Part shown: one piece after another, positions 8,091 through 31,858 of the stretch
Numbering within the stretch: position 1 is the stretch's first letter
Layout: each line of letters starts with the position of its first letter
Source of the DNA: a virus
IMG/VR virus record: IMGVR_UViG_3300010370_000146
Span: 1-31,883 of that record
Reading direction: 5' to 3' (one strand)
Length of the DNA: 31,883 nucleotides
Made by a program: the position numbers and the translations under genes
The notes under the pieces: model-generated
Databases searched by the model: none
Seen by the model: only the letters and a program-made list of their open reading frames with translations
Told to the model about the DNA's origin: nothing

Positions 8091-8296
8091 GCTGCTGCCG
8101 CCTGCTCGATCGTGTCGATGATCTCGTCGGCCTGCTCGAGGTCGAACACGAACTCGACGCCGAGCACCTGGTCGGTCTCGGGGTGCGTGAACCCGATGCA
8201 GAACACCATCACCTGAGTCACACCTGACTCGTGCATGAGCGCCCCACGCTTCGCCTCGAAGGTGCGCATCTCCAGCCACTGCCGGGAGGCGGTCAC
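8087..8296 (-). CDS. Small hypothetical protein, 69 residues
   Basis: The GTG at 8296 overlaps the stop of the C5 methyltransferase C-terminal frame (GTGA), which makes it a better start than the upstream ATG at 8335. The sequence has an N-terminal helix, two hydrophobic strands (QVMVFCIGF and GVEFVFDL) and an acidic C-terminal helix ending in four Ala. It looks like a compact soluble alpha/beta protein. No family is recognised. Its coupling on both sides indicates that it is co-translated with the resolvase. Confidence 0.7.
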   Translation of the reverse strand: MTASRQWLEMRTFEAKRGALMHESGVTQVMVFCIGFTHPETDQVLGVEFVFDLEQADEIIDTIEQAAAA

Positions 8297-8865
8297 AGGT
8301 CTGCCTCCACTGCGGCCATATGTCGGCCGATCCATGCTGCGACCGGCGAGGCGACGCCGTTGCCGATCATCCGGTAGCGGGCGCTGTCGGAGATGCTGAT
8401 CGTGTTGCCGTCAGCATCAACGCCGAGGGCGGTGTGTGCGTCGGGCCATCCCTGCAGGCGTTCGCATTCGAGCGGTGTGAGACGGCGTACTGCGGCGGTG
8501 GCGCAGCCGTCTGCGCCACCGCCTTCGGTGCGTAGCGTCGGCGTCGCATGTTCGGACGGTTGGATGTCAATGCCTTGCGTGTGGCCGAACGCAAGCACGG
8601 TTGCATTTCCTTGTCCCGGTTTGCCGCCACCCTGCCCGAGCGTGCCCATTGTCTCAGTCATGCTGATCTCGTTCCGCTGGTTCTCGGCGATCGCCAGCAC
8701 GGTCGCCCGTGTGTCGCCTTGGTCGAACTGGTTGAGGGTTGGTGCTGGCCCCCCTCCACCCATGTCTCGTCGTCGGTGTTTGACTGCGCCCGCTTGGACT
8801 TCACGAACACCGGCACAAGGTTTTGGCATTCGTCGCCTGCAGGCCCACCGGTGCCTTTCGCCCAT
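8293..8865 (-). CDS. C5 cytosine methyltransferase, C-terminal part (frameshifted)
   Basis: The genuine coding portion runs from about 8756 to 8293. It encodes the end of the target-recognition region (PAPTLNQFDQGDTRATV) and the conserved C-terminal motifs IX and X: RRLTPLECERLQGWPD and RYRMIGNGVASPVAAWI. These belong to the N-terminal half encoded at 9025-9828, which is in the same frame; a 300-base middle segment lies in another frame. The residues encoded between 8757 and 8865 do not resemble the family and are probably read out of frame. If the breaks are real this piece is not translated as part of an enzyme. If they are sequencing errors it completes a protein of about 511 residues. Confidence 0.7.
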   Translation of the reverse strand: MGERHRWACRRRMPKPCAGVREVQAGAVKHRRRDMGGGGPAPTLNQFDQGDTRATVLAIAENQRNEISMTETMGTLGQGGGKPGQGNATVLAFGHTQGIDIQPSEHATPTLRTEGGGADGCATAAVRRLTPLECERLQGWPDAHTALGVDADGNTISISDSARYRMIGNGVASPVAAWIGRHMAAVEADL

Positions 8866-9122
8866 TTGCTGGTCACGGCGTTCACCACTCCTGACAGGTA
8901 TGAGGAGTCCGGTGTAGGCGTCCTGCCCGTTGTACGAGCCTGGATGCCCCCCCCGCTGATCGTGCCGACGATGTCGGCTGTCGGGTCGTTCACGACAGTC
9001 ACCAAGTGTTCGCCGGGTTCTGTCCTAAAGCCACCCCGGTTCCCGCCCGAGTTGAGCGTTGCCGCAGGCGATGAGATGACCTGCCTGTGCCTGGTTGTCG
9101 TCTGCGCTGCAGGTGCCGACAC
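8658..9122 (-). pseudogene. C5 methyltransferase middle segment in the displaced frame
   Basis: Between roughly 9064 and 8756 this frame encodes TLNSGGNRGGFRTEPGEHLV, a WAKGTGGPAGDECQNLVPV stretch and NTDDETWVEGG. All of these belong in the variable target-recognition region of phage C5 methyltransferases and continue logically from the N-terminal part. The residues before and after this span in the same frame look like noise. The second switch falls on a run of six C (8749-8754 on the plus strand): one more base there would rejoin the final frame. The first switch, at about 9058-9072, needs one base fewer. Confidence 0.65.
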
Positions 9123-9828
9123 CGGTTGAGGTGAGCGCGGCGACGTGTGTGTGTGTGTGTTCCTCGGTCAGGCTGCTGCTTGTGTCAGCGCGTCGTGCAG
9201 CACCTGCGGCAGCTGTCTTCCGCGCCGTTCGGCGCGTCGCAAAATCCCTTGGCAGGCTTTCTGCGACAGGTAGTAGCGGGTCGGGACATCGTTCGGCGGC
9301 TGCAGGATCGAAGCAAGCGATGACGAACACGCGCCGTCGTCGCTGGGGCACTCCGAAATATTGTGCGTCCAGGACAGCCCATTCGATTGCCACCGCCCCT
9401 GCTTCTGCCAGCGAATCGAGGACGGCAGCGAAGTCGTGCCCACGATTGCTGCTGAGGGCTCCGACGACGTTCTCCCAGATTGCCCATCGGGGGTAAACAG
9501 ATCGAGTTGCATCACGCATCTCCTTGATGATTCGGATCGCCTCGAAGAAGAGGCCAGAGCGGTTGCCGTCCAACCCGGCACGCTTGCCGGCGACGGACAG
9601 GTCTTGGCAGGGTGAGCCGAACGTGATGCAGGTGACGGGTGCGAGCTCGTTGCCGTTGACGGTGGACACGTCGCCGTACTTCGGCACGGTCGGCCAGTGA
9701 TACCTGAGCACCTGCTGGCACTTGTCGTCCCATTCGACCTGCCAGGCGCATTCCCACCCGGCGGCTTCCATGCCGAGGTCGAACCCGCCGACGCCGGCGA
9801 ACAGGGAACCGAACGTCAGGTCAGACAT
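9025..9828 (-). CDS. C5 cytosine DNA methyltransferase, N-terminal catalytic part
   Basis: C5 methyltransferases transfer a methyl group from AdoMet to cytosine. Motifs appear in order: motif I FGSLFAGVGGFDLG, motif IV FGSPCQDLSVAG with the catalytic Cys, motif VI IWENV, and motif VIII QRRRRVFVIA. The frame then ends after HLIACGNAQLGREPGWL, just as the target-recognition domain begins. That domain continues in another frame, and motifs IX-X follow at 8293-8756. The gene carries a (GT)8 run at 9145-9160 encoding His-Thr repeats. Together with the six-base homopolymer downstream, this could make it phase-variable, or the breaks could be assembly errors. The start overlaps the preceding small gene by eight bases. 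Confidence 0.85.
   Translation of the reverse strand: MSDLTFGSLFAGVGGFDLGMEAAGWECAWQVEWDDKCQQVLRYHWPTVPKYGDVSTVNGNELAPVTCITFGSPCQDLSVAGKRAGLDGNRSGLFFEAIRIIKEMRDATRSVYPRWAIWENVVGALSSNRGHDFAAVLDSLAEAGAVAIEWAVLDAQYFGVPQRRRRVFVIACFDPAAAERCPDPLLPVAESLPRDFATRRTARKTAAAGAARRADTSSSLTEEHTHTHVAALTSTGVGTCSADDNQAQAGHLIACGNAQLGREPGWL
9145..9160. repeat. (GT)8 dinucleotide repeat in the methyltransferase gene
   Basis: Eight perfect GT units lie inside the C5 methyltransferase coding sequence and encode alternating His and Thr. Slippage by one unit would change the frame. It is the only such short dinucleotide tract I noticed in the window. Confidence 0.9.
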
Positions 9829-10867: not shown

Positions 10868-11052
10868 CACGCCACGGCCTTGAGGTGCCGGCGCTCGACA
10901 AGCTCGGTGACGACAGCGCGCGCACCGGTCGTGCCGTGATCGGCGACGTAGGCGTCGACGGTGCCGGTTCGGTCGCACAGGTGGTACGGCTGGTGCGGGG
11001 TCGGGGTCGTGAACGCCTCGCAGCACCAACGGGCGCAGCGCCACCGGTTCAT
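10867..11052 (-). CDS. Small Cys-rich hypothetical protein
   Basis: This protein has 61 residues, with ATGA coupling to the excisionase-like gene upstream and TGATG coupling downstream. The N-terminus has RCARWCC followed by a later LCDRTG, giving four Cys that could bind zinc. The C-terminal half (VDAYVADHGTTGARAVVTELVERRHLKAV) is a plausible small helix-turn-helix-like helix set. A DNA-binding accessory role is possible from position alone; no family is identified. Confidence 0.6.
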   Translation of the reverse strand: MNRWRCARWCCEAFTTPTPHQPYHLCDRTGTVDAYVADHGTTGARAVVTELVERRHLKAVA

Positions 11053-11252
11053 GCGGCTGCCCCGTCGTGCAGGCGGTCGACCTCGGCGCTCGACACGAAG
11101 TGCTGGCCGCCGATCGAGAAGATGCGCAGGCCGTTCGCCTCGGCGAAGGCCCGCCCCCGCTGGATCAGCGTGCGACGGCTTGGTGCAGGGCGCCCGGAGT
11201 CGAGGAGCTGCAGACCGAGATCGTGCAGGTGGAGGAACTTCGGCTTGTCCAT
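11049..11252 (-). CDS. Excisionase / Cro-like small DNA-binding protein
   Basis: This is the first gene of the leftward early operon. Starting at the ATG at 11252 it has 67 residues. PSRRTLIQRGRAFAEANGLR followed by FSIGGQHFVSSAEVDRL matches the MerR-like winged helix-turn-helix of phage excisionases: a helix, a turn, then a wing ending in a short recognition of the type xVxxxEVDRL. It may direct prophage excision or repress early promoters. The promoter just upstream places the transcript start at or within a base of this ATG, which argues against the longer ATG at 11288 and for a leaderless mRNA. It is divergent from the plus-strand repressor. Confidence 0.7.
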   Translation of the reverse strand: MDKPKFLHLHDLGLQLLDSGRPAPSRRTLIQRGRAFAEANGLRIFSIGGQHFVSSAEVDRLHDGAAA

Positions 11253-11259
11253 GCCGGGC

Positions 11260-11288
11260 AGTATGCCAACCTGTGCACAGGTATGCAA
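11260..11288 (-). promoter_or_regulatory. Leftward early promoter (leaderless)
   Basis: On the minus strand, TTGCAT (11288-11283) and CATACT (11265-11260) are separated by exactly 17 bases, matching the SigA-type layout. The predicted start falls at about 11253-11252, on the ATG of the excisionase-like gene, so the mRNA would have no leader. A 14-base palindrome occupies the spacer. Confidence 0.65.
11269..11282. promoter_or_regulatory. Palindromic operator candidate
   Basis: ACCTGTGCACAGGT is a perfect 14-base palindrome inside the spacer of the leftward early promoter. A bound repressor would block RNA polymerase. A further CACAGG lies at 11315-11320 within the opposing promoter. The likely ligand is the plus-strand HTH protein encoded next to it. 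Confidence 0.65.
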
Positions 11289-11294
11289 GTCATT

Positions 11295-11307
11295 GCAAGA
11301 TTCTTGC
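11295..11307. promoter_or_regulatory. Second inverted-repeat operator candidate
   Basis: GCAAGATTCTTGC is an inverted repeat of two 6-base arms around one base. It overlaps the -35 element of the repressor promoter, a position suited to autorepression or to binding by the excisionase/Cro-like protein. A TTATCCACA sequence at 11309-11317, identical to a DnaA box, adjoins it. Confidence 0.5.
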
Positions 11308-11333
11308 CGTTATCCACAGGCGAGCACTACGCT
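11304..11333 (+). promoter_or_regulatory. Repressor promoter (leaderless)
   Basis: TTGCCG at 11304-11309 and TACGCT at 11328-11333 are spaced by 18 bases. The predicted start lies at about 11340-11341, the GTG of the repressor gene, and there is no ribosome site. This fits a leaderless transcript, common for actinophage repressors. Confidence 0.55.
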
Positions 11334-11340
11334 ACACAAG

Positions 11341-11634
11341 GTGGAAAACTGGGGCGAGAGCGTGCACAGGCGGCGTATTGCTGCAGGTCTGTCGATGGAG
11401 CGGCTTGCCGCCCTCGCAGGCGTCTCGCGCATGACGATCGCAGCGGTCGAGACCGGCGAGGCTTGTCGGGACAACACGAAACGCCTGATCGAGGCGGCCC
11501 TGGACGCTACGACCCCGGTGTCGCTGTCTGATGAGGTGGCAGGGCTGCGGCGAGACGTAGCAGAAGTGCGCGAACTTCTGCGAGCTCTGCTCGAGCGACT
11601 GCCACCTGAGCCGCCAGCTCAACCTCCGGTGTGA
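11341..11634 (+). CDS. Putative immunity repressor (XRE-type HTH)
   Basis: This is the only plus-strand gene in the window. Read from the GTG at 11341 it gives 97 residues. The helix-turn-helix region is MERLAALAGVSRMTIAAVETG (about 19-39), with the classical XRE A-x(3)-G-V-S-x(2)-T pattern. The C-terminal 40 residues (SDEVAGLRRDVAEVRELLRALLERL) form a probable coiled coil for dimerisation. The open frame extends far upstream but lacks protein-like character there, and the promoter places the start at the GTG. It is divergent from the early operon and convergent with the integrase, the standard place for a lysogeny repressor. Immunity function is inferred. Confidence 0.8.
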   Translation: MENWGESVHRRRIAAGLSMERLAALAGVSRMTIAAVETGEACRDNTKRLIEAALDATTPVSLSDEVAGLRRDVAEVRELLRALLERLPPEPPAQPPV

Positions 11635-11817
11635 CCTCGTCGTCCGTCATGACACCAAACAGATGTTCGGGCTGGGACAGGGTTAGGCCCTGAGCCCCCC
11701 CCCCCCGAACATCTCGGCGGGCAGGAACCTCGCGAACAACGGACTGGCCTGCATGAAGCACCCCCTCGTGCTGAACGAAAACTAGCCACGCCCGCAAACG
11801 TCGTCTAGTGGCGGTGC
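11635..11817. other. Intergenic region between repressor and integrase
   Basis: The stretch of 183 bases holds the inverted repeat described above and no supported gene. A minus-strand frame beginning at 11650 overlaps the repressor gene in antisense; it is treated as a shadow of the repressor coding sequence. Confidence 0.5.
11661..11714. terminator. Inverted repeat with C12 tract between convergent repressor and integrase genes
   Basis: AGATGTTCGGG at 11661-11671 and its perfect inverted copy at 11704-11714 enclose a 32-base loop that itself contains a small CAGGG/CCCTG hairpin at 11678-11692. The loop side includes a run of 12 C at 11695-11706. It sits between the 3' ends of two convergent genes, so a bidirectional terminator is the likeliest role. 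There is no T tract. Confidence 0.45.
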
Positions 11818-12876
11818 TTACCCCTCGAGCAGGTGCCCGTAGATGTCCAGCGTGGTGCTGGTGCGCGCATGCCCGGCGAGGCGTGACACCCTGACCGGGT
11901 TCTCGCCGGCCTCGAGCAGGCTCGACACGAACGCATGCCGCAGCTCGTGCAGGTGCGCCGTCACCCCTGCCGCCCTGCACGCCTTCGCCCACCGTGCCTG
12001 CGCCCAATCGGGCCGGTGCGGGGCGTCACCCGTCAGCGAGAACACGAACGCATCGGGCATCACCGCCTCGATCGTCAGCCGCTCGGCCTGCGCAGCCTTC
12101 CAGCGGGCGAGCGCCTGCACCGTCTCGGGCGGCAACGGGATCGTGCGGCGGCCCTTCGCTGCCGTCTTGGTGTCCTTGACGACGACACCGCTCGCCGGCG
12201 TGTACGACACGGCTCGACGGATCGTCAACCTGGTGCCCCTGTCGCCGGTGGTGATGTCGCCCCACTTGATGCCGACCGCCTCGCCACGGCGCACACCTGT
12301 CGTCGCGATCACGTAGACGAGCGCAGCGAAACAGGGGTCGTTGACGACGGCGAGCACCTTCGGCACCGTGTCCTGCGCCGGCAGCACGATCTCGGGCGCA
12401 GGCGGCTTGGGCGGTGCGACGTCGCGTAGCGGGTTGCTGCGCACGATGCCGAGCCTGATCCCGCGCGAGTACGCCGACGAGATCACCTCGTGCGCCCGCT
12501 TCACCATGTGGGCCGTCCAACCGTCGCGCTCCAGCTGCTGCCACCAGCGCGCCGCGTGCAACGGTGCGACATTCGCCGCCTGGCGGTGCGTGATCGAATC
12601 AGGCAGGCGTGCCAGCGTGCGCCTCGTCTCGGCCGCATAGGTGGCGCTGAACCTCGAGTGCTCAAGATTGAGCCGCACCAGGTCACCGATAGTCATGCCC
12701 GCAACCTGCTCGGGCTGGCGCATCGACGGGCCGAGCTCGTCGGTGAGCGAAAGTCGCAGCGCGGCCTCAGCGTTTTTCGCAGCTGCCTTGGTCGGCTGCG
12801 GTGCCGACCTGCGCCTCGCGCCGTTGTGCTGGACGCTCGCACGCCACTTGCCGCTCGGAAGTTTCTCCACCGCCAC
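11818..12876 (-). CDS. int: Tyrosine-family phage integrase
   Basis: The enzyme recombines the phage attP with a host attB. The 352-residue protein has an N-terminal arm-binding strand set (1-45), a SAM-like core-binding domain (about 60-150) and a catalytic domain (about 165-352). The catalytic residues are visible: Arg196 in TTGVRRGEA, His310 and Arg313 in LHELRHAFVSS, His336 in LAGHARTSTT, and nucleophile Tyr346 in LDIYGHLLEG. The chain ends five residues after YG, a short but complete tail. A GTG start at 12876 overlaps the innermost arm-type repeat, which suggests that integrase binding could limit its own expression. The attP lies directly upstream. Confidence 0.95.
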   Translation of the reverse strand: MAVEKLPSGKWRASVQHNGARRRSAPQPTKAAAKNAEAALRLSLTDELGPSMRQPEQVAGMTIGDLVRLNLEHSRFSATYAAETRRTLARLPDSITHRQAANVAPLHAARWWQQLERDGWTAHMVKRAHEVISSAYSRGIRLGIVRSNPLRDVAPPKPPAPEIVLPAQDTVPKVLAVVNDPCFAALVYVIATTGVRRGEAVGIKWGDITTGDRGTRLTIRRAVSYTPASGVVVKDTKTAAKGRRTIPLPPETVQALARWKAAQAERLTIEAVMPDAFVFSLTGDAPHRPDWAQARWAKACRAAGVTAHLHELRHAFVSSLLEAGENPVRVSRLAGHARTSTTLDIYGHLLEG

Positions 12877-12915
12877 AGGGCACGACGTTAGCCCTGTCTG
12901 CCCTGTTCTGCCCTG
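12875..12915. repeat. Left-arm integrase binding sites of attP
   Basis: GCCCTG occurs at 12891, 12900 and 12910, each preceded by T or A and spaced 9-10 bases. An inverted copy (CAGGGCA-type) occurs at 12876-12882, overlapping the integrase start. The layout mirrors the right arm and fits arm-type sites bound by the integrase N-terminal domain. Confidence 0.6.
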
Positions 12916-12933
12916 ACAGGCCCCCGAAACGGC

Positions 12934-12963
12934 GGTCAGCGGGGGCTCGCACCCCCGCTGACC
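12934..12963. terminator. Perfect 12-base hairpin between integrase and attP core
   Basis: GGTCAGCGGGGG and its perfect inverted copy flank the loop CTCGCA. On the plus strand, a T-rich CTGTTTTCT follows, so it can act as a plus-strand terminator. On the minus strand it lies just after the tRNA-Val 3' fragment, so it might equally be a copy of a host tRNA terminator. A protein-binding role in recombination is also possible. Confidence 0.5.
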
Positions 12964-12976
12964 TGCTGTTTTCTAG

Positions 12977-13018
12977 TGGGCGATACCGGGCTCGAACCGA
13001 TGACCTCCACGGTGTGAA
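12977..13018 (-). other. attP: attP core: tRNA-Val(CAC) 3' half
   Basis: Read on the minus strand this matches the 3' half of a tRNA-Val: anticodon loop TTCACAC (anticodon CAC), variable AGGTC, a five-pair T stem ATCGG/CCGGT around TTCGAGC, and acceptor strand ATCGCCC plus discriminator A. No D arm or 5' acceptor strand follows, and pairing of the anticodon stem fails on the 5' side, so identity ends at the anticodon loop. Phages that integrate into tRNA genes carry such a fragment to restore the gene. It lies 100 bases from the integrase start. Confidence 0.85.
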
Positions 13019-13156
13019 TGCGCTTTTTTGATGTCGTGGCGTGCAAAACCGCAGGTAAACGTGCGTGCATCTGCGGGCACAGGGCAGCACTTGCCCTGCC
13101 GCTGCCCTGCCGCTGCCCTGTTTGCTACCGAACGATCAAGCGTGCAGCGGGCACCC
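13019..13156. other. Right arm region of attP without a gene
   Basis: This gap between the attP core and the nearest cargo gene contains the right-arm repeat cluster at 13080-13120 and no supported coding sequence. Confidence 0.5.
13080..13120. repeat. Right-arm integrase binding sites of attP
   Basis: GCCCTG occurs at 13093, 13104 and 13115 with exact 11-base spacing, each preceded by T. An inverted copy (CAGGGCA) occurs at 13080-13086. Inverted-then-three-direct is the same order as on the other side of the core, and the spacing is close to one helical turn. Confidence 0.6.
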
Positions 13157-13348
13157 TTACGCCTGTTTGCGCCGTCGGTACATCGCCTGCTGGTGCTCGT
13201 TGTATGCCTGACGACAGGCGTCGTCAATCGGCTCGCCGTTGCGCTGGTGCCGACGAAACGCTGCGTAGGTGCCGCAGGGTTTTGGTGTGCGCGCAGGACC
13301 GCCTCGCAGGCGATCTCGGTACTCGGCGAACCTTGACGGCTCGGTCAC
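13157..13348 (-). CDS. Small hypothetical protein next to attP
   Basis: The protein has 63 residues, with a GTG at 13348 overlapping the upstream stop (GTGA). The central segment PCGTYAAFRRHQRNGEPID followed by DACRQAYNEHQQ resembles a small module recurring in actinophages, with one Cys on each side of a basic helix. It is highly basic at the C-terminus (YRRRKQA) and may bind nucleic acid. It is the last gene before attP, so after integration it would sit at the prophage boundary. Confidence 0.7.
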   Translation of the reverse strand: MTEPSRFAEYRDRLRGGPARTPKPCGTYAAFRRHQRNGEPIDDACRQAYNEHQQAMYRRRKQA

Positions 13349-13596
13349 TTGACGAGCCTGAGGTGCGGCCCCGCATTGCGACGATCTTGCTCACAGACCT
13401 CGCAGTCAAGTTCACTGCCCATCTCTGCCCTCCAGAATGCCCTGTCGTCGTCGTTCACCAGCAGCCAGCGACCTCGCTGGGTCTGGTGGGTCTTGGCCTT
13501 CGGGCGAGCGTTCAGGCAGGCCGTAAGTTCGCGACCTGCGTGGGCGACACAGGTGCAGCCGCCTTGGTCTTGGTTGATCCACAGCACGGCGCTCAT
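13345..13596 (-). CDS. Hypothetical protein of the attP-side operon
   Basis: This is an 83-residue protein. The ATG at 13596 overlaps the upstream stop and has GGAGGTGA seven bases before it, a better arrangement than the GTG one codon earlier. The sequence has CTCVAHAG near residue 15, a central LVNDDDRAFWRAEMG helix and LDCEVCEQD near residue 66. Two CxC/CxxC pairs suggest metal binding. No family is recognised. It is coupled on both sides. Confidence 0.7.
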   Translation of the reverse strand: MSAVLWINQDQGGCTCVAHAGRELTACLNARPKAKTHQTQRGRWLLVNDDDRAFWRAEMGSELDCEVCEQDRRNAGPHLRLVK

Positions 13597-13841
13597 CACT
13601 TCACCTCCAGCAGGCCGAGAACCTCTGCGGGGCCGAACGACCCGTCGGGCAGGATGTCAAGGGCAAGCACTTCGCCCTTCTTGTAGGGCGCTGGCGGGTT
13701 CACCAGCTTGACCTCAACCATCTTGCCGTTGTAGGTGCGCAGCACCTTGGCCTCGCACTCGACCGTGCCGTCAATGCGGCCCCAGTAGCCGTTGACGATC
13801 GGGAAGTTCGCAATGCGAACAGTGACTGTGTTGGCGGCCAT
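13596..13841 (-). CDS. Hypothetical beta-rich protein of the attP-side operon
   Basis: From the ATG at 13841 this is an 81-residue protein; GGGAGG lies five bases upstream. An alternative leaderless start at the ATG at 13892 would add 17 residues and coincides with the predicted transcript start. The product is beta-rich (TVTVRIANFPIVNGYWGRI, CEAKVLRTYNGKMVEVKLV) and ends GPAEVLGLLEVK, resembling a small barrel or KOW/SH3-like fold. The function is unknown. It is the first gene behind a near-consensus promoter and would be expressed in both lysogenic and lytic states unless repressed. Confidence 0.7.
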   Translation of the reverse strand: MAANTVTVRIANFPIVNGYWGRIDGTVECEAKVLRTYNGKMVEVKLVNPPAPYKKGEVLALDILPDGSFGPAEVLGLLEVK

Positions 13842-13898
13842 GACGGCCTCCCTTCCGGCCTTGCGGCCTGTAGTGGTTGCGCTTGCTGCCATGTCTGT

Positions 13899-13927
13899 AT
13901 CTAACCACATTTCGCACATGACGTCAA
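13899..13927 (-). promoter_or_regulatory. Near-consensus promoter for the attP-side operon
   Basis: On the minus strand, TTGACG (13927-13922) and TTAGAT (13904-13899) are separated by exactly 17 bases. It is the best SigA-type promoter visible in the window. The expected start is at about 13892, on an ATG, allowing a leaderless transcript. No palindromic operator is seen over it. Confidence 0.75.
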
Positions 13928-14028
13928 CCACTACAGCAACATTTCTCGGAAAATCTTTTCAGGCAACGCCCTAAAGAAGTGTGTTCGCCGGTGCGCAGTC
14001 GGGACACAATGTCGTCGTCGTCAGCCAC
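13924..14028 (-). CDS. Possible 34-residue protein
   Basis: The GTG at 14028 overlaps the stop of the upstream gene by eight bases and is preceded by GGAGG at seven bases, an excellent ribosome site. The product begins MADDDDIVSRLRTG, a start typical of small actinophage proteins, and ends in a Cys cluster (KCCCSG). Its stop overlaps the -35 box of the next promoter. It could be a real small protein or the truncated remnant of a longer gene cut when the promoter was acquired. Confidence 0.4.
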   Translation of the reverse strand: MADDDDIVSRLRTGEHTSLGRCLKRFSEKCCCSG

Positions 14029-14515
14029 CTTTCTGCCTCCATTCTCCGGTCAACTCAAGCGTGGCGGTAAAGCCGTCGGTGCCGTGTCGTGTCCAACCGA
14101 TGATGTAGGCGTCGGCGATCTTGCCGTCCCATTCGATGCGCGCCAGCGAGTCAAACGCCGGCGGTTCTCCGGTGCCGACCACTTCGGCCGTTGTGGTGAC
14201 AACACCGGGCACAGCAACGTCGCCGGGTGGCAACGTGCGGCCGGTTAGCGGTTCGTCGCACCGTGCGCAACGCGTCTCCATCTCGTCGATCATGTCGTTG
14301 CAGTCATCACACCAGTACTCGCCGACCTTCACCCGTCGGAGGGTCTGCCAAGTGTTCTCGTGCCCGTTCGGGCATCGACCAACCCAGTCGGGATCTTGCG
14401 TCTCAAACATCGTCCCGACCATCTGCACCGGCTTGTCAACGCTGATCCGCGTGACGGTGCCCGTAGCGCCCGGCCAAGTGACCGATGCTTGCTTTGGAGT
14501 CATGAAACTCGGCAT
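14021..14515 (-). CDS. Zinc-ribbon hypothetical protein
   Basis: This 164-residue protein has GAGGGGG six bases before the ATG. Cys pairs are visible as RCPNGH (about 47), WCDDC (about 68-72) and RCARC (about 82-85), consistent with a zinc ribbon or rubredoxin-like knuckle. The C-terminal half is beta-rich (RIEWDGKIADAYIIGW, FTATLELTGEW). GC content and codon choice look lower than in the virion genes, a sign of acquisition. It sits between the late-operon terminator and the cargo promoter. I see no clear promoter, only a direct ACACATTCG repeat upstream. The function is unknown. Confidence 0.7.
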   Translation of the reverse strand: MPSFMTPKQASVTWPGATGTVTRISVDKPVQMVGTMFETQDPDWVGRCPNGHENTWQTLRRVKVGEYWCDDCNDMIDEMETRCARCDEPLTGRTLPPGDVAVPGVVTTTAEVVGTGEPPAFDSLARIEWDGKIADAYIIGWTRHGTDGFTATLELTGEWRQKGG

Positions 14516-14673
14516 CGCGTTCCCCCTCAGGTCTGCGTTGGTCGCACGTTACCGCACCGAATGTGTTCGAATGTGTCAGAGATGTGTCACGCCGACCTCC
14601 CCGAAAAGCAGTGCACGCCCCCACCCTTGCGGGCGGGGGCGTGCGTAGTCGCTGGAGGGGGAGCAGCGACGAT
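14516..14673. other. Intergenic region with late-operon terminator
   Basis: This stretch contains the strong hairpin at 14613-14644 and, closer to the downstream gene, two direct ACACATTCG copies at about 14555-14575. No supported gene lies in it. Confidence 0.5.
14613..14644 (-). terminator. Late-operon terminator
   Basis: A 14-base stem with one A-C mismatch and the tetraloop TTGC is followed on the minus strand by CTTTTC. It lies 30 bases after the last late gene. This is the clearest intrinsic terminator in the window and separates the 17-kb late operon from the lysogeny genes. Confidence 0.75.
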
Positions 14674-14940
14674 CTAGCAGAGTTGCTCGAGCGGGATGCG
14701 GGCGCCGTCGTTCAGCTCGACGACTTCGCGCACCATGCCGAGCGGGACCGCTAACACGTGGTCGACAGCGTCATCGGAGGCCGAGGCTGCGAGCACGATG
14801 TGGTTCGGCTTGGCGCCGACGATGACGTAGCCGATGGAGTCGACGACATACGGTTCGGCGTCGATCTCCTCGATGGCCTGCCAGCCGTCGCCGCAGGAGT
14901 GTGCGTCGTGCCAGCGGACACGGACGAGCTTGCCCTTCAT
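14674..14940 (-). CDS. Hypothetical protein at the end of the late operon
   Basis: This is an 88-residue protein, start overlapping the stop of the 29-codon gene upstream. It is beta-rich: KLVRVRWHDAHSCGDGW, a strand pair VVDSIGYVIVGAKPNHIVL, then LGMVREVVELNDG. The pattern of a conserved WHDAHS near the N-terminus followed by a small barrel is seen in short phage proteins coded after the lysis genes. No function is recognised. A terminator follows directly. Confidence 0.75.
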   Translation of the reverse strand: MKGKLVRVRWHDAHSCGDGWQAIEEIDAEPYVVDSIGYVIVGAKPNHIVLAASASDDAVDHVLAVPLGMVREVVELNDGARIPLEQLC

Positions 14941-15026
14941 CGGCAGTACCACCAGAACAGGTAGCCGACGGCAACGGTGCCGCCGACGCACCAGCCGACG
15001 ACGAACGCAAGCGGCAGCCTGTTCAT
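14937..15026 (-). CDS. 29-residue membrane protein
   Basis: The ATG at 15026 overlaps the phosphoesterase stop (ATGA), and its own stop overlaps the next start (ATGA). The product begins MNRLPLAFVVGW and continues through a hydrophobic VGGTVAVGYLFWWY run, giving one transmembrane helix with a basic N-terminus. Such mini-proteins are easily missed. It may help in lysis or be a membrane-associated accessory; this is inferred from position. Confidence 0.6.
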   Translation of the reverse strand: MNRLPLAFVVGWCVGGTVAVGYLFWWYCR

Positions 15027-16177
15027 TGCGACCCCCTGTACTCACGGCCGCGCCAGCGGGCCCAGCCGTCTCGTATTGCGATCTGTTCGTAGGTGAACCG
15101 GCCGTCGCCCGGTTCGTACTCGACGACGGCGAGACCTTGCTGCCAGTCCTCGTGCCTGACGACGGGTCGGCCGTCGAGGTCGATGCCGCCCTTCGTCGAG
15201 GGGACGGCACCGTCGGTGCGGGCGAGACAGCCGGGGCTGGCAGCCATGATCGTTTTCGGGCCGTCGTGATCCTCGCGTGTCCGTTCGGCGTACTCGATGC
15301 GGTGGATGTGACCGTAGATGACTGACGTCTTCTCGGTGCCGAGGTACTTGTGGGCGGTCGAGCCGCCGCTGGCGACCTTGTCGCCGTGCACCACGCGCAG
15401 CCGTTCGTTGATCCAGTGCGAGCGGGCCGGGTAGCCAGGCAGGTACTCAATGTCGTGGTCGTCGAACCGGCACAGGTGCGGCAGCGACATCACCGGCCAC
15501 GACTCGGGCTGGTTGCCCTGCCTGAGCCCGAACGCTGCGGCAGCGTTGTCGAGCAGATAGTTCGGCAGGCGTTCCTCGTGGTTGCCGGCGAGCCAGACGA
15601 CACGGCAGTGGGGGCCGACAGCGGCCCGGACCTCGGCGGCGAGGATGGCGAGCCGGTCGATGGTTGCCTGTGTCGTGCGGGCGTAGGCGGGCGAGAGCCG
15701 GTACTTGCCGAGCTCGGGGAAGTCCGCGTTGTCGCCGACCATGACGACGAGCGCCGGGCGTGCCTGGCGGCAGACGGCGAGCGCGATGGCGATCGCAGCC
15801 TCGTCGTGTGTCGGCTCGAGCAGCTCGCCGTGCGACCGGTAGTAGCCGACCTGCATGTCGGGCAGGATGACGGCACGTTCCCAGCCGTCGACGACCTCGG
15901 GTCGCACCTTCGACGGCGGCACCTTGACCGGTGTCGCAGGCTGGACGACCGGCCACTGCGGCCCGTCTGCCCACTTCGGCGACAGGGTGATGCCGGTCAT
16001 GTCGACCGTGTGGGCCTCGCCGTCGGCGTCCTTGTAGAACCCCTGCCAGACGTTGACCCTGTCGACCTTGCCGACGTCGTCGACGTCGATGCCGTTGCGC
16101 TCGAGCAGGTCGGCGATCCGGCCGAGCCGGTCGCGCGAGGTGACGGCGCGTGCTGCTATCTCGTCAGCGAGGCTCAC
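15023..16177 (-). CDS. Calcineurin-like metallophosphoesterase
   Basis: The 384-residue protein has a GTG start at 16177. The dimetal phosphoesterase motifs appear in order: LPDMQVGYY (about 105), VMVGDNAD (about 145), WLAGNHEE (about 198), LRVVHGDK and IYGHIHRIE. The N-terminal 100 residues contain a helical segment (RDRLGRIADLLERNGIDVDDV) that may bind DNA or act as a linker domain. Similar proteins are frequent in actinophages next to the lysis cassette; the substrate (phosphodiester, nucleotide or DNA) is not known. The start lies inside the previous small gene, overlapping by 14 bases. Confidence 0.9.
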   Translation of the reverse strand: MSLADEIAARAVTSRDRLGRIADLLERNGIDVDDVGKVDRVNVWQGFYKDADGEAHTVDMTGITLSPKWADGPQWPVVQPATPVKVPPSKVRPEVVDGWERAVILPDMQVGYYRSHGELLEPTHDEAAIAIALAVCRQARPALVVMVGDNADFPELGKYRLSPAYARTTQATIDRLAILAAEVRAAVGPHCRVVWLAGNHEERLPNYLLDNAAAAFGLRQGNQPESWPVMSLPHLCRFDDHDIEYLPGYPARSHWINERLRVVHGDKVASGGSTAHKYLGTEKTSVIYGHIHRIEYAERTREDHDGPKTIMAASPGCLARTDGAVPSTKGGIDLDGRPVVRHEDWQQGLAVVEYEPGDGRFTYEQIAIRDGWARWRGREYRGSQ

Positions 16178-16421
16178 AGGAACAGACCCCCCGCCGGTGC
16201 CGGCGCAGGCTGTCGTCGCCGACCTTGTGCCCGAGGGCGCGCAGGGTGCGCCCGATCACGACGGTGGTGATTGTCGGGTCGGCGAGCGCAGTGCGCAGGT
16301 CGGCGATGTCGGCGTCGGTGAGTGTTTGCATCATGGTGGCGACGCCACACTTGGAGCCGACACGGTGCGAGTCCTGCGCAGCCTTGATGGCGTCGAGCAG
16401 GCCGCCCGGCTTGGCGCTCAG
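16164..16421 (-). CDS. RHRRG-motif small protein with apparent CTG start
   Basis: The 85-codon frame begins at CTG (16421-16419), which overlaps the stop of the holin-like gene as CTGA, exactly like the ATGA and GTGA junctions elsewhere. The first ATG (at codon 30) would remove a region that looks genuine: AKPGGLLDAIKAAQ and HRVGSKCGVATMM. The rest, ADIADLRTALADPTITTVVI then GRTLRALGHKVGDDSLRRHRRG and CSC, resembles a recurrent actinophage family with a putative helix-turn-helix and a terminal RHRRGxCxC motif. A DNA-binding role, perhaps linked to packaging or integration, is inferred. The stop lies 14 bases into the phosphoesterase gene. Confidence 0.7.
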   Translation of the reverse strand: MSAKPGGLLDAIKAAQDSHRVGSKCGVATMMQTLTDADIADLRTALADPTITTVVIGRTLRALGHKVGDDSLRRHRRGVCSCEPR

Positions 16422-16633
16422 ATGTCACCGCCGGTGTCGGTGCCCGCAGCCTGCTCGAGCATCGCCTGGATGGTGCGCAGGGCGGCCGCCCCGCCGGCGA
16501 TCATGGCCGACACGAGCACCGCCTTCGCCCCGCGCAGGTCGCCCGGTATCTGGCCGAGGCTGGCACCGGCGGCGAACGCACGGATGAATGACAGCCCGAT
16601 GTTCGCGAGCTTGGCCTTGAGCTTGCTGGTCAT
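16418..16633 (-). CDS. Putative holin
   Basis: This is a 71-residue protein with two hydrophobic stretches (SFIRAFAAGASLGQI and KAVLVSAMIAGGAAALRTI) joined by a DLRGAK turn. The pattern of a basic N-terminus, FIRAF, then DL-AK-A followed by a second hydrophobic helix, matches small r1t-type actinophage holins. Holins form membrane holes that let the endolysin reach the cell wall. It follows the endolysin and a coiled-coil membrane protein, an expected lysis cassette. AGGGGGAAAC precedes the ATG. Confidence 0.7.
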   Translation of the reverse strand: MTSKLKAKLANIGLSFIRAFAAGASLGQIPGDLRGAKAVLVSAMIAGGAAALRTIQAMLEQAAGTDTGGDI

Positions 16634-16647
16634 GTTTCCCCCTGTGT

Positions 16648-16938
16648 TCAGGCGACGTCGGCGTTGCCGCCGGTGATGTGTCTCGGGTGCACGATCACGC
16701 TGCTGGTGTGGTGCGGCCCGTTGATGTGGTCGTCGAGCCGGGCGGCGACGTCACGCACGCCTTCGTGTGTCATCTCGACCTTGGTCTCGACGCGTGCGAG
16801 TGCCTCGCCGACGCTGCCGTGCTGCTTGCGGTTCTCGCGGCGCAGTTTGACGACGTTGCCGATCATGGTGAGAACGGCAGCGGTGATCGTTGCGCCGGCT
16901 GCGATGACGGCGACGAGCACGTCGGTGCCGGCGGTCAC
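16648..16938 (-). CDS. Holin-like membrane protein with coiled coil (DUF2746-type)
   Basis: The GTG at 16938 overlaps the endolysin stop (GTGA). The 96-residue product has a single N-terminal transmembrane helix (VLVAVIAAGATITAAVLTMI), then a charged coiled coil (KLRRENRKQHGSVGEALARV, continuing to AARLDDHI), then a His-rich tail. The architecture fits actinophage lysis-cassette membrane proteins of the DUF2746 sort. It may be a holin, an antiholin or a pinholin partner of the next gene. Confidence 0.7.
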   Translation of the reverse strand: MTAGTDVLVAVIAAGATITAAVLTMIGNVVKLRRENRKQHGSVGEALARVETKVEMTHEGVRDVAARLDDHINGPHHTSSVIVHPRHITGGNADVA

Positions 16939-17663
16939 GAGAGCGCCGCCCAGGTTGCGGGGCCGACGATCCCGTCGACCGGCAGGCCGTTGGCGAGCTG
17001 GAACGCCTTGACGCACGCCTCGGTGCGCGGGCCGAACCTGCCGTCGCTGCGACCGGGGTCGTGCCCGTGTGCGCGCAGGAGGTCTTGCAGGCGTGCGACT
17101 GCTGCCCCTTCGTCGCCACGCTTCAGTGTCGGTGTCGGCAGGTCGCCGGGCAGGGTGATCTGCTTGAGCGGGTGATGCCTGTGCGGGCTGTATGCGGAGC
17201 GCCCGCCGGGGATGTCGACCGGCTGGATGTGCCACGGTTCGCTGTTCACCTTCGAGAACTCACGCAGCCCGAACTCGGCGACCGCACCGGCCATCCACTT
17301 GAGGTTCCCGACCATGTCGGCGGCGAGCACCCCACCGGCCGGTGTTGTCGGCTCGTGATACGACAGGCCCGGCGGTGCGGCGTGTGCCGTGTGCGGCTTC
17401 AGCCTGTACCGCTTGCCCTCGAACCGGCAGCAGCCACCGACGAGCACCGGATCGTGACGGCGCAGGAACAAGGCACGCTGCGAGGCGGTGCTGCGCCCGG
17501 CGCCGCCGATGCCGAGCGACACGCCCGCCCTGCGGGCAGTCTGCATCATCGCAAACGTGCGACGACGAAACTCGGGGTCCATCATTGCGACGCCCGGCTT
17601 GGCGGCGATCTGCTCGAGCGTGAGGCGTGCGCCGGCGTAGCCCCACGGGTACAGGTCTGTCAT
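16935..17663 (-). CDS. Endolysin: peptidase M15-type domain plus peptidoglycan-binding domain
   Basis: The 242-residue enzyme is the likely cell-wall hydrolase for lysis. The N-terminal catalytic domain has the zinc ligands of the VanY/M15 D-Ala-D-Ala peptidase family: His103 in LSYHEPTTPAGG, Asp116 in LAADMVGNLKW and His145 in SEPWHIQP. The C-terminal domain (about 178-242, LKRGDEGAAVARLQDLL through GPATWAALS) is a peptidoglycan-binding PG_binding_1 repeat. No signal peptide is present, so it needs a holin. The following membrane gene overlaps its stop. Confidence 0.9.
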   Translation of the reverse strand: MTDLYPWGYAGARLTLEQIAAKPGVAMMDPEFRRRTFAMMQTARRAGVSLGIGGAGRSTASQRALFLRRHDPVLVGGCCRFEGKRYRLKPHTAHAAPPGLSYHEPTTPAGGVLAADMVGNLKWMAGAVAEFGLREFSKVNSEPWHIQPVDIPGGRSAYSPHRHHPLKQITLPGDLPTPTLKRGDEGAAVARLQDLLRAHGHDPGRSDGRFGPRTEACVKAFQLANGLPVDGIVGPATWAALS

Positions 17664-27181: not shown

Positions 27182-27316
27182 GGTGGTGTTGCTCCTAAAT
27201 GGAATGGGGGGTTGTGTTGTGGGTGCGCAGGTGGTGGCAGGGGCCGTGGTGCGTCGCCGTCGCGACGTCCGAGGGCCTGCTCCGGGCTGGCGGGGTGCCG
27301 CTGGTGCGGCGTGCTG
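27182..27316. other. Intergenic gap before the capsid gene
   Basis: The gap of 135 bases holds the capsid ribosome site AGGAGCAAC and a small inverted repeat CGTCGC/GCGACG around GACG. I see no gene and no clear promoter. Confidence 0.5.
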
Positions 27317-28618
27317 CTACGCCTTGCGGGCGTAGAGATCGGTGAACCGGCGTGCGAGAACCACCGGGATGCCGGCAGGGTCTGGCTCGACGGTCGCAGC
27401 GTTCGATGTCTCGGGCTCGTCGGCCGAGCGCACCGCAGCAGACGTGGCTGCGTATGCGGGGAAGCCGGTGACGACCGACACCTCGTGAAGGATGAGCTCG
27501 CGCAGCTCGCGTGTCTGGCCGTCGTCCGACCAGGCGTCGCCGCCACGCGGCACCGAGAACCCGAACGACATCGAGTGGACGTCGCCGCGGCGCATGAGCA
27601 CCGCCAGGTCGCGCCCGACGGTCGTGTCGGGCAGGTCGGCCTCGACCTTGAGGCCGCGTGCGTCCTCGACAAGGCGCAGGGTGCCGGCACGGGTCGAGCC
27701 GAGCACGTCGTCGGTGTTGTGGTTGCGGAACATGCGGACCTCGCGACCCGACTGCAGCGACCGCTTGAAGGCGCCGGTGCGGATCGTCTCGGTGAACGGC
27801 AGCGGTTCCGACGGGGAGTCGAACACGGCGGCGTACCCGGTGAACGTCATGCCGCCCGAGTCGGCGTCGCGCACCTCGATCTGGCCGACCGACACGGTGC
27901 GGAACTCGACGTCACGACCGTTGACCTTGCGGTGCTCAACCTCGAGGGCGCCGTAGCGCACTGCGGTGTCGCCGCTGCCGGCAGGGGCAGGCTCGGCGGC
28001 GACGAGTGATGCGGGGATGACCCACCGCTTGCAGATGCCGTTCGGGTCGATGTCGCCCGACACGATCTCGCACGCCCGTGCGCCGTCGTAGAAGGCGCAG
28101 CTGCTGCACACCAGGCCCTCGCCGGCGAACGGTGACTCGGCGACATAGTGGGCGCCGTCGGGGCCGGTGCCCTGGTCGTACTGGCCGAACAGCTCGACGA
28201 GGTGCTCGTCGTGCTGGTACTGCAGGTTCTGGCGTGGCGTGAACACCTCGAGATCGAGGTCGCGCTGTTCGGGCATGGTGTCGTTCTCCTGCAGGGCGCG
28301 GTCGTTGCCGGCGCTCTCGGTGATGATCGCTAGAGCCCACCGGCGGCCCGGCTCGCCGCCCCACAGGGCCCATGCGATGCGCCCTGCCGATGGGTAACCC
28401 TCGTCGCCCGGTGACCAGCCAGTCCCCTGCTTGTCGACCTCGTGACGGGCGAAGTAGGACGACATGCGCTTCACGGTGTCGAGCGACAGTGCTCGCCTGT
28501 TCACGATGTCGCGTGCTCGGGCGACGCCGACAGCGGTGCCGCCTCGGTTGTGTTCGGCCCGCCAGTCGAGACCCCGCTGGGCCTCAACGACCATCGCGTC
28601 GGTCGGCGTGAACGCCAT
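27317..28618 (-). CDS. Head-maturation protease fused to N-terminal and Cys-cluster domains
   Basis: The protein has 433 residues. The C-terminal 180 residues form an HK97-type prohead protease: FTGYAAVFDSPSEPLPFTET, MFRNHNTDDVLG with His300, and VHSMSFGFSVP with the nucleophile region (Ser349/351). Upstream lies a Cys-rich module, CSSCAFYDGARACEIV to ICKRW (Cys171, 174, 183, 196), found as a high-potential-iron-sulfur-like module in some phages. Residues 1-110 hold an ARARDIVNRRALSLDTVKRM segment of another known phage module. The fusion of all three is unusual. The start overlaps the portal stop by one base. The capsid gene follows after a 135-base gap. Confidence 0.85.
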   Translation of the reverse strand: MAFTPTDAMVVEAQRGLDWRAEHNRGGTAVGVARARDIVNRRALSLDTVKRMSSYFARHEVDKQGTGWSPGDEGYPSAGRIAWALWGGEPGRRWALAIITESAGNDRALQENDTMPEQRDLDLEVFTPRQNLQYQHDEHLVELFGQYDQGTGPDGAHYVAESPFAGEGLVCSSCAFYDGARACEIVSGDIDPNGICKRWVIPASLVAAEPAPAGSGDTAVRYGALEVEHRKVNGRDVEFRTVSVGQIEVRDADSGGMTFTGYAAVFDSPSEPLPFTETIRTGAFKRSLQSGREVRMFRNHNTDDVLGSTRAGTLRLVEDARGLKVEADLPDTTVGRDLAVLMRRGDVHSMSFGFSVPRGGDAWSDDGQTRELRELILHEVSVVTGFPAYAATSAAVRSADEPETSNAATVEPDPAGIPVVLARRFTDLYARKA

Positions 28619-31417: not shown

Positions 31418-31601
31418 GTGACTCCTCGGGTGCTGCCTCGCCCTCGATGGCAGCGATCTCGGCGACCGTTGCCCGCAGCTCGCGCGCAATCGACGCCACG
31501 TTCGACGGGTCTGCGGTCGACGCCGCCGCACGCAGCAGCAGCTCGTTCTCGCGCAACACCTCAAGCCGTGACGGTGGTGCCGGCTTCTTCTTCGCGGCCA
31601 T
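31305..31601 (-). CDS. Terminase small subunit (putative)
   Basis: The 98-residue basic protein begins MAAKKKPAPPSRLEVLREN and has a helical core (LLRAAASTADPSNVASIARE, LRATVAEIAAIEGEA) and a basic tail ERRGQPRRRGG. This size, charge and position between HNH and large terminase match small terminase subunits, which recognise the packaging site. The start overlaps the HNH stop (TGATG). The assignment is by position and composition. Confidence 0.65.
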   Translation of the reverse strand: MAAKKKPAPPSRLEVLRENELLLRAAASTADPSNVASIARELRATVAEIAAIEGEAAPEESLVDRLASKRAARLAAVNPEPAERRGQPRRRGGEHRAG

Positions 31602-31858
31602 CACAGACCCCACGGATTCACGACGAGCGGCGACTTCGCGTTCCGGTCGAGGTTGCACGGCTTGCACGCCGCACGCAGGTTCTCGACGTCAAGCGGATGA
31701 CCGCCACGCGACAGCGGGATGATGTGATCGACCTCGGTGGCGAACCCGGTGCACACCGACGGCGTGCGGATCTCGCACACGCCGCCAGCCCGCTCAAGCA
31801 CCTGGGCCCGAACCCTGCGCCACGGCCTCGCCGACAGCCGCTGATGGTGTTGGCTCAT
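31601..31858 (-). CDS. HNH endonuclease
   Basis: The 85-residue protein has GVCEIRTPSVCTGFATEVDH, IIPLSRGGHPLDVENLRAAC and KPCNLDRN, the HNH fold with a zinc-binding Cys pair (CxxC pairs at about 32-42 and 67-70) and the catalytic HI/N residues. Small HNH nucleases next to terminases are often needed for cos cleavage. The ATG at 31858 gives the MSQHHQ start; a GTG two codons upstream (31864) is an alternative. It lies at the right end of the genome, only 25 bases from the edge. Confidence 0.9.
   Translation of the reverse strand: MSQHHQRLSARPWRRVRAQVLERAGGVCEIRTPSVCTGFATEVDHIIPLSRGGHPLDVENLRAACKPCNLDRNAKSPLVVNPWGL

Follow-up and report, generated by a model that had tools for sequence, protein, structure and literature searches.

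The closest described counterparts of the locus reported here are Ltp, which belongs to a lysogenic-conversion module located after the lysis genes in Streptococcus thermophilus phages (PMC3952083), and Sbash 30/31, defence genes that are expressed in lysogens from a promoter of their own (PMC6426596, PMC6426606). Our locus is a cargo region of small genes in a 31,883-nucleotide viral sequence (IMG/VR record IMGVR_UViG_3300010370_000146; "the window" denotes this whole stretch). It resembles the Ltp-type modules in its position at the late end of the genome beside the attachment site, its own promoter, its variability and its lower GC content, and sister phages carry a lipoprotein there; however, the payload in the window is unrelated in sequence. 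Phages with the prophage-expressed defence genes Sbash 30/31 (PMC6426596) and CarolAnn 43/44 (PMC6426606) are temperate phages of actinobacteria, as the window phage appears to be, but the window operon has neither a DUF4747/RexA-like nor a membrane partner and gave no PADLOC match. On balance, we favor the reading that the region is an accessory (moron) operon complete in itself, occupying the lysogenic-conversion slot of a temperate actinobacterial phage; it would probably be an add-on that is expressed during dormancy of the phage in its host. Superinfection exclusion is a common benefit of such genes.

The IMG/VR record is linear, and nearly all genes of the window lie on the minus strand. 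Read from right to left, this strand carries terL, portal, protease, capsid and tail genes, an endolysin, a phosphoesterase and an 88-aa gene, beyond which follow, in order, the cargo region, attP, a tyrosine integrase and replication genes. An HNH endonuclease gene (31601 to 31780, minus strand) adjoins terL at the end of the window, as is found in many HK97-type packaging modules. ARAGORN reported a tRNA-Ala(TGC) at 27294 to 27374 on the plus strand, opposite the head genes and sharing bases with the end of the protease gene; this call may be a false positive. The minus-strand ORFs at 8293 to 8865 and 9025 to 9828 match successive parts of the C5-methyltransferase phrog_116 (205 to 400, then 409 to 492) and may represent one split, interrupted or frameshifted gene. 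Divergent from the early operon, which opens with a 67-aa gene (11049 to 11252), is the gene for a small XRE-family (HTH_3) protein that is the probable immunity repressor (11341 to 11634, plus strand), and the presumed early promoter contains a perfect palindrome, ACCTGTGCACAGGT (11269 to 11282), as a candidate operator. A run of approximately 10 C residues near 11697 to 11707, between int and the repressor gene, carries a risk of slippage or assembly error.

The first-pass annotation had placed the small genes between a late terminator and attP, and both boundaries were recovered. A terminator scan located a G+C-rich 14-bp stem with a T-rich tail at 14613 to 14644 (minus strand), and from sequence reading a hairpin occupies the equivalent place, 3' of a 77-aa gene, in L009, L055 and L065. 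The attP core (12976 to 13018, minus strand) comprises 43 bp identical to the 3' ends of tRNA-Val(CAC) in actinobacterial metagenome-assembled genomes, which include Acidimicrobiales and Ilumatobacteraceae; the putative host is an actinobacterium near these groups. The tyrosine integrase gene (11818 to 12876, minus strand), identified by profile matches, adjoins attP. Copies of TGCCCTG are clustered on either side of the core, with 7 of the 17 copies in the window inside 12876 to 13120, where approximately 5 would be expected across the whole window, and these are probable integrase arm-type sites. Given the tRNA-Val match of attP, the TGCCCTG repeats, and the XRE protein with its palindrome, the window phage is probably temperate; its attP is intact, and the phage is not integrated. 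A strong hairpin between int and attP (12934 to 12963), detected as a plus-strand terminator, is probably used from both sides. It lies past attP, such that integration parts it from the operon, and the scan found no terminator-like site directly past 13157 and no cassette-specific terminator beside the last gene. At the other end of the region, three copies of (C)GAATGTGT / AGATGTGTC, nearly in tandem and 10 to 12 bp apart, immediately precede the 164-aa gene (14556 to 14590); these are possible regulator sites, although the motif is at chance level window-wide.

Among the three to five small genes originally proposed, those encoding proteins of 164, 98 or 81, 83, and 63 aa were retained on codon usage or homology, while the 34-residue candidate (13924 to 14028) was rejected, with a codon usage score of −0.40 bits per codon and an overlap with the promoter. 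The 164-aa protein (14021 to 14515, minus strand) contains the Cys groups CPNGH, CDDC and CARC with beta-rich flanks, and its gene stands outside the three-gene operon. The first operon gene (13596 to 13892, minus strand) encodes a beta-rich protein of 98 aa when read from the leaderless ATG at 13892, which fits the promoter best and is the most likely start; an alternative ATG at 13841, preceded by a strong Shine-Dalgarno sequence (GGAAGGGAGG), would give 81 aa. Its codon signal is strong (0.66 bits per codon), with little in the 17-codon extension. The second gene (13345 to 13596, minus strand) encodes an 83-aa Cys-containing protein (CTC, C, CEVC), and the third (13157 to 13348, minus strand) a 63-aa single-domain CGT...RRH...GEP...C protein. 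The ATG of the 83-aa gene (13594 to 13596) overlaps the stop codon of the first gene, and the GTG of the 63-aa gene (13346 to 13348) overlaps that of the second, supporting a single transcript. Codon usage supports the 164-, 98/81- and 83-aa genes; the 63-aa gene has a weak codon score and is supported by homology, with 72, 57 and 48% identity to proteins in IMG/VR loci and relatives in 55 phage records. The lower GC content that had been claimed was borne out, as the region is the lowest in the window (61.8% versus 67.4%; rank 6 of 1,527 windows).

The 164-, 98/81- and 83-aa proteins are orphans, without relatives in phages, IMG/VR or 385 to 395 genomes of the putative host class, where the IMG/VR protein scans used exact peptide seeds that reach close relatives only, and they gave no usable match in Pfam, PHROGs, NCBIfam or PADLOC. 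L084 and L085, candidate relatives in genomes for the 164-aa protein and the 81-aa form, were rejected because they run antisense to MsrA and a transposase; the weak class-genome match of the 164-aa protein is the one antisense to MsrA. L086 was unconvincing. Structure prediction, which the first-pass annotation had suggested for the products, was performed for the 81-aa form and the 164-aa protein, and the single-sequence models were of low confidence (mean pLDDT, 48 and 56, respectively). By eye, no signal peptide or membrane segment was evident in the three operon proteins, and Rfam gave no match across 11200 to 14700.

The operon was said to be driven by the best promoter in the window, near consensus and with 17-base spacing. 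A relaxed −35/17/−10 scan indeed returned the cargo promoter (13890 to 13927, minus strand; TTGACG-17-TTAGAT-6-ATG) as its sole match in the whole window, and the spacing and the −35 hexamer (TTGACG, 13922 to 13927; 5 of 6 consensus positions) agree with that description. The −10 hexamer (TTAGAT, 13899 to 13904) does not, matching TATAAT at 3 of 6 positions; a strict sigma-70 scan found no promoter in 11000 to 17000, and the actinobacterial TANNNT pattern accommodates neither TTAGAT nor TAGATA. The assignment is supported by conservation rather than by consensus score. The start codon (13890 to 13892) follows 6 nt after the −10 hexamer, and the distance from TTGAC to ATG is exactly 35 nt; with this spacing, transcription would start at or beside the start codon, and the mRNA is probably leaderless. 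Leaderless genes are common in Actinobacteria (PMC3160421, PMC3898074).

The palindrome of the early promoter was not found at the cargo promoter, and its absence would allow cargo expression in a lysogen. CTGTAGTGGTTG forms a perfect inverted repeat of 12 bp, with one arm overlapping the −35 hexamer (13925 to 13936, minus strand) and the other inside the opening codons of the 98-aa ORF (13868 to 13879, plus strand). Such repeats are expected at approximately 0.4 per window in simulated sequence, and approximately 6 occur in the real window, so that a regulatory site here is suggestive, at modest significance. The motif CGRAATGTG, considered as a shared operator, is at chance level in the window. 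Matches to TTGAC-18-TTAGATAC-4-ATG in IMG/VR were close to the chance estimate (23), and the pattern is not diagnostic alone. TTGACR-17-TTAGATAC was encountered twice among 390 genomes from the putative host class, so a promoter with exactly this sequence is not common in the host.

The domain of the 63-aa protein, CGT-x5-RRHxRxGEPx[CD]xxC, occurs by itself, joined to a WhiB core in L066, and joined to an HTH in Gordonia phage Bradissa gp62. The protein matches the C-terminal segment of the phage WhiB-like regulators phrog_12112 (E, 6e-5) and phrog_22267 (E, 1e-4) but lacks the four-Cys Fe-S core of the WhiB family, having two Cys residues and no PF02467 match. A separate WhiB-like gene is present in the window phage (7192 to 7641, minus strand), and by eye the N-terminal HGT...H...CxxC of its product resembles the 63-aa finger. 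Assignment to the GATA-type zinc fingers was rejected, as the best match to PF00320 (E, 0.015) came from relatives only, and GATA chains in the PDB were matched by a wide profile (E, 0.024 to 0.65) and not by a trimmed one; the GATA likeness is only a lead. The 63-aa protein is probably a regulator, and a regulatory DNA-binding role appears to be the most economical reading of its domain.

A protein sequence search identified relatives of the 63-aa protein in five IMG/VR loci; the promoter geometry of their operons was noticed afterwards. In four of the five (L062, L063, L064 and L065, the last two forming a pair), the operon of the relative starts with TTGACA or TTGACG, followed after 17 nt by a −10-like hexamer that ends in AT and, 6 nt further on, by ATG, so that the geometry is shared with three other IMG/VR phage lineages, at differing genomic positions. 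As a null, 577 kb of related loci with 15,774 ATGs contained 51 distinct TTGACR sequences located 34 to 36 nt ahead of an ATG. Searching IMG/VR with GTGGTTAGATACNGACATG gave matches only in the L064 and L065 contigs, already known by protein homology. Spacer likeness is significant between the window and L063 (12 of 17 positions; p, about 0.001) and weak in other pairs. The L062 unit lies backwards, on the opposite strand, between terL and portal, and that of L063 is flanked by opposite-strand genes; neither relative adjoins attP or int. L064 and L065 both carry the unit in the equivalent slot, after a 77-aa gene and a hairpin as in the window. The beta-rich and Cys-containing proteins of L065 could not be aligned with those of the window and are therefore positional analogues, not homologues. 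Partner genes vary between loci in size, sequence and number. Separately, a promoter block, ATTCCCTCTTGAC...GTAACGGAACTRTG, occurs three times ahead of successive small genes in L065 (3990 to 5070) and in L064, the third copy with a degenerate −10/start part, and the conserved spacer of these blocks hints at a shared operator.

The sister phages L009, L010 and L055 share the arrangement phosphoesterase, 77-aa gene, hairpin, slot, tRNA-like attP and int, and in each the slot holds unrelated genes on the opposite strand. These include a 159-aa lipoprotein in L055 (7573 to 8052, minus strand) and L010 (5923 to 6402, minus strand) and a 157-aa membrane-anchored protein in L009 (7618 to 8091, minus strand), all of which are good candidates for superinfection-exclusion proteins. 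The 88-aa gene of the window, just before the terminator, shares 52 to 53% identity with the 77-aa gene of L009 and L055; thus, the slot has a conserved frame but variable content.

The moron reading accordingly draws on accessory genes that lie between conserved phage genes and differ in close relatives, a promoter of their own recognized by sequence and conservation, and a base composition unlike the rest of the phage. The class is supported because the slot varies in sisters, relatives occur elsewhere or reversed, the promoter is free of the palindrome, and GC content is low. The further proposal of exclusion or defence genes drew no positive support: no convincing match to a defence or exclusion family was obtained in PADLOC, Pfam or NCBIfam, where a new system would be missed, and since the 164-aa protein and the first two operon proteins are orphans, no benefit can be read from them. 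Under the moron reading, RNA polymerase would start at TTGACG-17-TTAGAT and yield a leaderless mRNA from which the three small proteins are translated in a coupled manner. Recombination of attP with tRNA-Val(CAC) by the integrase would place the operon at the prophage end opposite int, where it would be transcribed toward the attR junction, and a promoter without the early palindrome could run in the lysogen while the lytic genes stay off. The first two proteins would constitute an interchangeable payload and the CGT finger the recurrent part, most likely a DNA-binding protein that tunes either the cassette or a gene of the host, with the inverted repeat across the promoter as a possible target. 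Zinc and DNA binding by the 63-aa protein, as well as a benefit to the host, are what we infer.

The main rival is early lytic use, because Arthrobacter phages have their CGT relatives in the neighborhood of replication genes. The operon would then be expressed soon after infection, for example for takeover of host transcription by the finger protein, and its adjacency to attP would mark no more than the late/early boundary. The relative in phage Sakai lies in a same-strand small-gene array upstream of exonuclease, AAA-ATPase and SSB genes and that in Rizwana is close to RusA, while in L064 and L065 the cassette runs into early-type genes, including one for a DGQHR-like protein. Nevertheless, the cargo promoter has no early operator-like palindrome, the L062 and L063 relatives lie on the strand opposite their neighbors, and the sister phages hold lipoprotein or membrane genes in the slot, which together make early lytic use a less likely though serious contender.

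A toxin-antitoxin-like addiction or defence module with an autoregulated promoter, in which the finger protein would be both antitoxin and repressor, is improbable. The overlapping start and stop codons, the leaderless promoter, the inverted repeat spanning it and the variable partners would suit such a module, and leaderless mRNAs are overrepresented among toxin-antitoxin pairs of M. tuberculosis (32 of 37; PMC3898074). However, no toxin, antitoxin or defence family was matched in Pfam, NCBIfam or PADLOC, and the partner genes are unlike one another in size, sequence and number across loci.

Two explanations are very unlikely. Genes for recombination directionality factors are frequently near attP, and the small, presumably DNA-binding protein encoded approximately 140 bp from the attP core could be such an accessory of the integration module, but its relatives in L062 and L063 are away from attP and int, and the product of the 67-aa gene at 11049 to 11252 suits the role just as well in size and position. 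If the ORFs were decaying or had arisen by chance and served no function, this would account for the orphan sequences, the weak codon score of the 63-aa gene and the Asp in place of one finger Cys, but not for the conserved promoter, the coupled starts, the strong codon signal of the first gene or the identical C-to-D change in the Sakai and Rizwana proteins.

Beyond the moron reading, we tentatively propose a portable actinophage cassette, in which a fixed 38-nt leaderless promoter-plus-start and a CGT finger would enclose swapped payloads, move as a unit across lineages and insertion points, and be autoregulated through the finger. To our knowledge, no such portable expression cassette has been described earlier. 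The small finger domain, fused elsewhere to WhiB or HTH regulators, is a testable putative DNA-binding protein of phages. If the cassette is recurrent, TTGACR-17-TNNNAT-6-ATG with a short gene and the gene for a CGT finger behind it would be a simple handle, one that would find lysogenic-conversion genes in uncultured actinobacterial phages where homology of the payload fails.
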